From positions 1-28,269 of the IMG/VR virus record IMGVR_UViG_3300045997_000008: a stretch of 28,269 nt of DNA, one strand, 5' to 3'. Below are positions 26,584 through 26,891 of this stretch, one piece after another (position 1 is the stretch's first letter; every line of letters begins with the position of its first letter). Below the pieces are notes generated by a model, which saw nothing but the letters and a program-made list of their open reading frames with translations, was not told the DNA's origin and made no database searches. The translations under genes and the position numbers were made by a program. Source of the DNA: a virus.

Positions 26584-26613
26584 AGTCTAGCAGGTCGATC
26601 CGGTGTCTGTCAA
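26584..26613 (-). promoter_or_regulatory. leftward promoter 1 of the array
   Basis: TTGACA (26608-26613), 18-base spacer, TAGACT (26584-26589). It is the array member nearest to the structured RNA. Confidence 0.75.
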
Positions 26614-26718
26614 GTCTCGCTGTGGCCGCTCGCACCATCACTAGGCGCTATATGAGTCGGAATGTCGCACAGTGAAGCCTAGACTCCGTTGTGACCCGCT
26701 ATTGTGTTGTTCCCCTCA
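26614..26718. other. inter-promoter sequence
   Basis: No gene. It shares a block with the region 27950-28020 (GTGGCCGCTC..., then ATATG-GAGTC, then GTCGCAC or TCTCGCAC), so the promoter regions at 26.6 and 27.9 kb look like diverged duplicates. Confidence 0.5.
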
Positions 26719-26747
26719 AGTCTATCAGGTCGGAATTGCTTTGTCAA
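26719..26747 (-). promoter_or_regulatory. leftward promoter 2 of the array
   Basis: TTGACA (26742-26747), 17-base spacer, TAGACT (26719-26724), then TGAGGGGAACAAC. Confidence 0.8.
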
Positions 26748-26783
26748 GCGGCCCGATCTGGCAGGCTGTGAAGTTGTCCCTCA

Positions 26784-26812
26784 AGTCTAGCACCTCAAAT
26801 CGTCACTGTCAA
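26784..26812 (-). promoter_or_regulatory. leftward promoter 3 of the array
   Basis: TTGACA (26807-26812), 17-base spacer, TAGACT (26784-26789), then TGAGGGACAAC. Confidence 0.8.
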
Positions 26813-26861
26813 CCCTAAGGTCTAAGCTACGCTTCGAAGCGCCATGTTGAGTTGTGCCACC

Positions 26862-26891
26862 ATCATAGCATCCCTCAGCGACATCTGTCAA
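26862..26891 (-). promoter_or_regulatory. leftward promoter 4 of the array
   Basis: TTGACA (26886-26891), 18-base spacer, TATGAT (26862-26867), then GGTGGCACAAC. Confidence 0.8.

Follow-up and report, generated by a model that had tools for sequence, protein, structure and literature searches.

The window analyzed here, a linear virus contig of 28,269 bases, carries near its right end a tandem array of leftward promoters that probably constitutes a cluster A right-end, Pleft-type early non-coding RNA locus, apparently without repressor control. Like the Pleft locus described for L5, D29, StarStuff and Kampy (PMC5712189, PMC4626039), the array points leftward at the same place in the genome, in terminal non-coding DNA that precedes the last leftward gene. 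The window and its relatives have in common TTGACA-17/18-TANNNT promoters and a leader that closes with a tRNA-like structure, whereas the window differs from the known locus in having more promoters, a longer stretch (∼2.6 kb) and its own three-copy RNA unit, and in lacking both a repressor site at the −35 and a recognizable repressor.

The window is identified from its sequence as the right arm of a relative of the cluster A (L5/D29-type) mycobacteriophages. Rightward minor tail genes occupy the first 5.3 kb, and from ∼5.3 kb on the identified genes run leftward and encode a DNA polymerase, ribonucleotide reductase, a sigma-K-like protein, primase, endonuclease VII, DnaB helicase, a Cas4/RecB-like exonuclease, a DNA methylase and a pair of proteins classified as recombination directionality factors. 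The right arm holds cluster A replication and early genes in the expected transcription direction, and its DNA polymerase is 62–64% identical to cluster A mycobacteriophage polymerases. The last 2.4 kb are mostly non-coding and end in a G+C-rich tip, as do cluster A right ends. No close DNA relative was found in the annotated phage collection when the array was used in a DNA look-up, the places listed falling in the gene part, and no relatives were recovered with the 155- and 128-amino acid proteins of the window among viral contigs or with its 182-amino acid protein among phage records. Of the scanned proteins that are encoded between tail genes and polymerase, none belonged to an integrase or ParA family. 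The DNA methylase gene (20291–21665, minus strand) is apparently split into two overlapping open reading frames, and several cluster A relatives are annotated likewise. A 100-amino acid open reading frame at 5445–5747 (minus strand) matches a transglycosylase family as well as portions of tape measure proteins, has DNA matches to the tape measure genes of Nazo and Luke, and adjoins the tail genes yet is stranded among leftward genes.

The initial annotation had described four near-consensus minus-strand promoters, and all are present as TTGACA-17/18-TAGACT or TATGAT at 26613–26584, 26747–26719, 26812–26784 and 26891–26862. Promoter 1 (26584–26613; TTGACA-18-TAGACT) is the innermost of the clustered four; it has no ACAAC and points into the leader whose end holds the tRNA-like structure. 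Promoters 2 (26706–26747) and 3 (26773–26812) both have TTGACA-17-TAGACT, followed by ACAAC at positions 9 and 7 after the −10, respectively, and promoter 4 (26851–26891) has TTGACA-18-TATGAT followed by ACAAC at position 7. Further promoters had been proposed at 25461, 25940, 27133, 27911 and 28077. Here, the site at 27133 proved to be a consensus promoter (promoter 5, 27133–27161; TTGACA-17-TAGAGT), whereas the other four have good −10 boxes and no TTGACA. Downstream of promoter 5 lies ACCAGCACCAAC, a motif variant that occurs also in Yecey3, Mundrea and DarthPhader. Across the 28-kb window, no leftward sites other than these five (26613, 26747, 26812, 26891 and 27161) combine an exact TTGACA with two or fewer mismatches in the −10, so that strong leftward sigma-A promoters are predicted in the terminal non-coding DNA as at the Pleft locus.

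Among the promoter-like sites, all on the minus strand, that at 27900–27916 consists of the −10 TATGAT, a discriminator and ACAACAGCACAAC, without TTGACA, and the outermost, at 28065–28082, of the −10 TAGACT, a discriminator and ACAACATCACAGCGG. The site at 25450–25466 has the −10 TATACT, extended by TGC, and ACAACAACACAACGGAGGATGACATG; the motif start is followed at once by GGAGG and an ATG (25431). The −10-like TATACT at 25935–25945, which had also been named, has no motif. A 34-codon open reading frame without annotation (27770–27874, minus strand) lies directly behind the motif start at 27905.

A motif shared by six of the nine listed promoters downstream of the −10 had been reported, and the count stands: ACAAC begins at position 7 in four cases, at position 8 in one and at position 9 in one, and is not found behind the −10 at 26584, 27133 or 25940. 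With the local minus-strand frequency of ACAAC (0.0037), the binomial chance of at least six in nine is 1.4e-10. Because the nine sites were the initial annotation's own choice, all TANNNT sequences were also counted without preselection. ACAAC follows in 6 of 45 cases in the minus-strand right end (25000–28269), in 3 of 201 on the rest of the minus strand and in none of 215 on the plus strand. A first degenerate motif pattern gave no match in the window. The G-rich part (TGAGGG/GGTGGC) is assigned to the discriminator between the −10 and +1, and ACAAC(A), located at about +1, forms the conserved core. The motif thus begins at the expected +1, far above chance, in agreement with its earlier placement in the initially transcribed region.

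An RNA model built from 16 other cluster A phages was applied to positions 24000–28269, and gave 31 matches, of which the top three coincide with motif starts, namely those at 28070 (13.5 bits, E = 0.0086), at 27905 (E = 0.09) and at 25455 (E = 0.11). With a position weight matrix from 54 promoters of other phages, only three of the six motif starts were among the 30 best places in the window. The annotation had left the motif as either an operator or an RNA element copied with each promoter. The second reading fits better, given that the motif is kept across relatives with differing operators and occurs here without a detectable operator, and the motif is best taken to mark where the transcript begins and not to be an operator. 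Three of the nine promoters each have one copy of a folded RNA unit behind them.

To place the array among its relatives, the right ends of 27 cluster A-type phages, including the Gordonia phage Epsocamisio, were compared, together with that of the Rhodococcus phage Jester, which is not counted in the 27. At least two leftward TTGACA promoters were present in the terminal non-coding region of 21 of the 27; no more than one was detected by the scan in Bxb1, Dreamboat, Kimona, SWU2, HINdeR and Timshel. Absence of the motif from relatives that keep the promoters would have spoken against its significance, and the opposite was observed: ACAAC starts 5–12 nucleotides after the −10 in 28 of the 71 tandem promoters of relatives, a count that includes near-duplicates such as Mundrea/LHTSCC. 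In relatives, the full consensus approximates (T)CACAACAGCACAG, and the D29 group shows a second form, ACGCAAGACCGAG. Positions 7–18 of the relatives' promoters are rich in A (0.39) and C (0.38) and poor in T (0.09), compared with 0.24, 0.29 and 0.16, respectively, further on, and, with Jester included to give 28 right ends, CAC is found 33 times at position 7 of their promoters. The promoter-plus-motif pattern was also searched in viral contigs and led to Yecey3 and one further contig (L003). GigiOuiOui was dropped as belonging to another group.

The L5 genome is absent from the collection, so SWU1 served as its nearest stand-in and L5 positions are derived from it. SWU1 has the A at position 7 of its outer promoter, the predicted +1, at 51,737 and the start of its last gene at 51,261; in L5, the mapped transcription start is at 51,672 and the deletions of the non-coding region begin at 51,195 (PMC5712189). 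Given that the shift between SWU1 and L5 is ∼65 both for the start and for the gene or deletion edge, this A is probably the real +1.

Between two array promoters of cluster A phages, 90–130 bases are predicted to form two elements, an outer stem (P1) and a hairpin whose loop carries CCAGC (P2), followed by GAGCGCACA. In the 16 sequences of this inter-promoter RNA (A1), both sides change in 11 of the 13 predicted pairs, and 91.7% of pairs are formed, compared with 68.6% in shuffled sets (none of 500 as high) and 26–46% after sliding. The corresponding model matched 20 of the 27 right ends with E below 1e-10; 16 of these are its training set and the other four are near relatives of training members. 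It matches in addition the uncultured relative L004 (E = 0.003). A weak match (25.9 bits, E = 3e-4) lies at 3087–3183 in the right end of Jester. Searches of Rfam with the 16 loci returned nothing for the inter-promoter RNA, and the right end of the window gave two chance matches.

Within positions 24000–28269 of the window, the best match of the inter-promoter model (at 28070) covers only its 5′ start. The window instead carries, on the minus strand, three copies of a structured unit that differs from the inter-promoter RNA in sequence: copy 1 (27956–28024) lies behind the promoter at 28077, copy 2 (27007–27072) behind that at 27133, and copy 3 (26612–26680) behind that at 26719, its end abutting the −35 of promoter 1. 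The copies share one predicted fold, and their stems differ by compensating changes, e.g. CTC/GAG to CAC/GTG. Their folding energies are ordinary in comparison with shuffled sequences (z = −0.75 to −0.88), and three copies are too few for statistics. Given that nothing of the inter-promoter RNA beyond the 5′ start is recognized in the window, the unit may have no relationship to it; descent of the unit from that RNA was also considered. The sole contig that a scan of viral contigs offered as a further carrier of the unit (L034) was rejected as a chance match, being coding DNA without a blastn match to the window.

The leader ends in a tRNA-like structure (26042–26180, minus strand) that comprises an acceptor, a D-arm-like stem, a T-arm and two hairpin modules. 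The acceptor strand GGGTAAG (26180–26174) pairs with CTTACCC (26048–26042), the D-arm-like stem is formed by GCATGAG/CTCATGC (26173–26167 with 26114–26108), and the T-arm is GCAGG-TTCGATC-CCTGC (26065–26049). A UGGCG-hairpin-CGGCAUCA module occurs twice, starting at 26162 and 26098, and recurs in D29, Malec, Rachaly and MissWhite. In the D29 group, the D-arm-like part reads GCTC-UGGC-hairpin-U-GAGC. When right ends were scanned for a five-pair T-arm with a TTC[GA]ANN loop and at least six Watson-Crick acceptor pairs, 18 of 27 minus strands had such a structure, compared with none of the 27 plus strands, and 100 shuffled sets yielded no instance. For 16 of these 18, the structure ends 35–51 bases before the last leftward gene. 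Looser versions were recognized by eye in SWU2, Severus, Isca, DarthPhader and Kimona, and none was seen in Mundrea or Bxb1; LHTSCC and Dreamboat were outside this inspection. A second match for a T-arm plus acceptor in the window, at 20765, was taken as chance because it lies inside the DNA methylase gene.

Covariation was assessed in a 20-row table that combined the window and L004 with 14 of the 18 scan matches and four examples picked by eye, and from which Spouty, Idleandcovert, GingkoMaracino and Epsocamisio were left out. Ten distinct acceptors are represented and all 20 rows are paired, whereas acceptors swapped between phages pair to 68–78%. Given that pairing helped to find most of the rows, the strand and shuffle controls of the scan carry more weight than this table. 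For 15 of the 18 scan matches (A2), the covariation score was 0.409 compared with 0.146 in controls (0 of 500), and the number of pair types was not raised (reached in 130 of 500 controls). With the T-arm and acceptor enforced, the window region folds into a cloverleaf of −55.7 kcal/mol, 2.7 above the free minimum; the free minimum-energy fold keeps the acceptor and loses the T-arm, and the folding energy of the region is ordinary in comparison with shuffles (z = −0.44).

The structure shares with tRNA and tmRNA a 6–7-bp acceptor, a 5-bp T-arm with a TTCGANN loop (TTCRANN across the phages) and UGG in a D-loop-like place. By contrast, it has no decoding anticodon arm, its D-arm carries an inserted hairpin, its middle varies from ∼20 to 115 nucleotides, and there is no tag open reading frame. 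ARAGORN called no tRNA or tmRNA gene in the window or in 22 loci, and remained negative for the window region and L004 when introns were allowed. A tRNA or tmRNA gene, for which a cloverleaf with a decodable anticodon arm and a tag open reading frame, respectively, were sought in vain, was therefore rejected. Sub-threshold Rfam matches were beta_tmRNA in the window (12.5 bits against a gathering score of 84), mascRNA-menRNA (RF01684) in MyraDee and Yecey3 (19.6 and 17.8 bits against 42.5), which was not among the window matches, tRNA-Sec in MyraDee and tRNA in Yecey3. No report of a tRNA-like structure at this locus was found in the literature consulted, whose coverage leaves out most subscription papers. 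A second T-arm-like hairpin (CTCAGGTTTGATTCCTGAG or close to it), perhaps a tandem degenerate copy, lies upstream of the structure in Yecey3, Spouty, Jaan, Zaka and DarthPhader.

Repressor control was sought at the level of both protein and site. A tblastn search of the window with five cluster A repressor sequences, three of them incomplete at the locus edge, found no immunity repressor (best E = 0.11), while the same queries matched L004 with E down to 1e-57. The Cas4/RecB-family exonuclease gene, which adjoins the repressor gene in cluster A, was found in the window (17726–18532, minus strand; E = 2e-65 with a Cas4-like query) with no repressor next to it; at 17930–19191, the Cas4-like gene is kept and the adjacent repressor was not found. 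The 7 nucleotides after TTGACA, which have a mean within-phage identity of 0.91 (lowest 0.66) in 21 phages, show 0.23 in the window, about the level of chance; the operator that overlaps the −35 at the Pleft locus is thus not seen here.

L5/Bxb1-type stoperators are asymmetric 13–14-bp repressor sites; as in the window, these TTGACA-containing sites lie in one orientation near the right end, whereas the window sites share nothing beyond TTGACA. The top 10-mer of the leftward arm occurs 11 times, within the range of 8–11 in shuffles, although such counts do reveal the repressor sites of L004, Veracruz, Yecey3 and D29. The window sites are thus distinct from L5-type stoperators, as had been suggested, with neither an enriched 10-mer nor repeated asymmetric 13–14-bp sites, and with no repressor found, a stoperator identity was rejected. 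Given that operator consensus, recognizable repressor and stoperators all went undetected, the window array is probably constitutive and unrepressed; similarly, with neither repressor nor operators detected, the phage is probably lytic. D29 is a lytic derivative without a complete repressor (PMC5712189), and both D29 and the window keep the right-end array and the tRNA-like structure without a functional repressor. D29 still has the operator consensus at both promoters, whereas the window has none, and on sequence the window phage is a cluster A relative that naturally lacks a repressor and goes further in this respect than D29. L004 (IMG/VR 3300044624_000756), an uncultured relative, has at 420–1580 a repressor and the stoperator consensus TTGACAGTA; two long hairpins in this segment share CTGTGAGAACAC, and a minimal acceptor-plus-T-arm element lies at ∼1534–1577.

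Published experiments give the locus its functional setting. The right-end RNA is the most abundant transcript in infections by L5, D29 and StarStuff (PMC5712189), and in Kampy 41 and 51% of transcription came from the right-end region at 5 and 15 min, respectively (PMC4626039). The 500 bases behind L5 Pleft give the most abundant RNA of infection, with stable species of ∼100–500 nucleotides, and a clone of the L5 locus was toxic (Dedrick et al., PMC5712189). Deletion of L5 51,195–51,407 failed and 51,407–51,619 could be deleted; the RNA 3′ end at 51,140–51,190 is reported as unexplained (PMC5712189). Transferred from SWU1 coordinates with a shift of 65, the L5 tRNA-like structure would lie at ∼51,340–51,247, inside the undeletable segment, and a second promoter start at ∼51,546, inside the deletable one. 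The reported 3′ end is ∼50–100 nucleotides to the left of the end so placed, and cleavage at the tRNA-like structure alone therefore does not give it. From Northern blots, Dedrick et al. concluded that one 5′ end is common to the smaller L5 RNAs, and they deduced one start and processing (PMC5712189); this argues against several active promoters in L5. For Kampy, neither of two promoter programs made a prediction that exceeded its cut-off (PMC4626039).

From the sequence features of the window phage, we infer constitutive early firing, a start at the A, nested transcripts and tRNA-like processing. Host RNA polymerase would fire the array leftward right after DNA entry, giving transcripts that start unstructured, CA-rich and U-poor (+1 A: ACAACA...), a start that may favor start selection and promoter escape or leave a free 5′ end. 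The transcripts would then traverse the folded units to the tRNA-like structure, where host tRNA enzymes may cut, RNase P at the acceptor 5′ side and RNase Z or exonucleases at the 3′ side; such cuts would separate a stable non-coding RNA from early mRNA. The repeated promoters would raise the dose and yield nested RNAs with a common end.

In the MALAT1/mascRNA and menRNA systems, a long non-coding RNA carries at its 3′ end a tRNA-like element that is released by RNase P and RNase Z. The phage element resembles MALAT1/mascRNA in lying near the 3′ end of an abundant non-coding RNA, and RNase P/Z processing is suggested by this likeness; the phage matches are far below the gathering score of RF01684, so the comparison is one of analogy, not membership, and common descent is without support. 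A more specific proposal, advanced tentatively and with a chance we put just short of even, is that the tRNA-like early RNA from the tandem-promoter array engages host RNase P, RNase Z, the CCA-adding enzyme or EF-Tu, either to mature a stable RNA as in MALAT1/mascRNA or to occupy the enzymes. If so, the toxicity and failed deletion at the L5 locus would be its phenotype, and the window would represent a naturally occurring form released from repression.

The strongest competitor to reading the motif as a functional transcript 5′ end is that it is only the start context preferred by mycobacterial sigma-A, a purine-rich discriminator with A at +1 and a pyrimidine at +2; this appears possible and less than even in probability. 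Positions 7–9 are the expected start place, the recurrence of CAC at position 7 in the 28 right ends is as this explanation predicts, and the composition bias fits an initially transcribed sequence; against this, conservation spans ∼12 nucleotides (ACAACAGCACAG), more than a start preference needs, and a conserved RNA structure comes after the start in relatives. It seems unlikely that a phage or host protein binds ACAAC DNA downstream of the −10 and so regulates the whole array. Conservation over six promoters, some more than 1 kb apart, would suit such an operator, and a repressor-less phage might use another regulator, but the offset of the motif from the −10 varies by 2 nucleotides here and by more in relatives, its core is only 5–12 nucleotides, U-poor and CA-rich, and it persists across phages with different repressor sites. 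A comparably low probability is given to an unstructured translation-enhancing leader, with CA repeats before a Shine-Dalgarno sequence, copied to several early genes: at 25461, ACAACAACACAAC leads directly into GGAGG and ATG, and a short open reading frame follows 27911, yet most array promoters have no substantial open reading frame behind them and the relatives' copies are mostly in non-coding leader. Cluster K phages carry start-associated sequences, conserved elements just upstream of start codons; the window motif sits behind −10 boxes, mostly with no gene after it.

For the tRNA-like elements, the alternative is that they are functionless decayed tRNA genes or attachment-site remnants. 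The 3′ halves of T-arm and acceptor are typical attP cores of tyrosine integrases, and ARAGORN calls none of the elements; both acceptor strands are nevertheless kept and covary through the 20 rows, the place before the last gene is fixed, and the elements are on the transcribed strand only, which together leave decay the least probable of the rivals, slightly behind the operator and the leader. An RNA-based replication origin of cluster A prophages was rejected, that origin being parABS-proximal (PMC7157519).

With the array read as a Pleft-type locus, a tRNA-like structure in an undeletable segment, conserved across the cluster by compensating changes, offers a concrete target for the question of the L5 RNA 3′ end, and a shared feature of this kind could explain why the early RNA of cluster A phages is so stable and reaches such extreme abundance. 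Judging from the promoter arrays, several right-end "stoperators" may be true operators of further promoters, and the window phage, with an array and no operators, separates the needs of repression from those of transcription. Stable RNA ends and strong mycobacterial promoters would also be practical tools. Within the window, an inverted repeat at 25607–25643, with 16-nucleotide arms that are 88% complementary and a 5-nucleotide loop, lies inside a 63-amino acid open reading frame (25481–25672) and is possibly a terminator.
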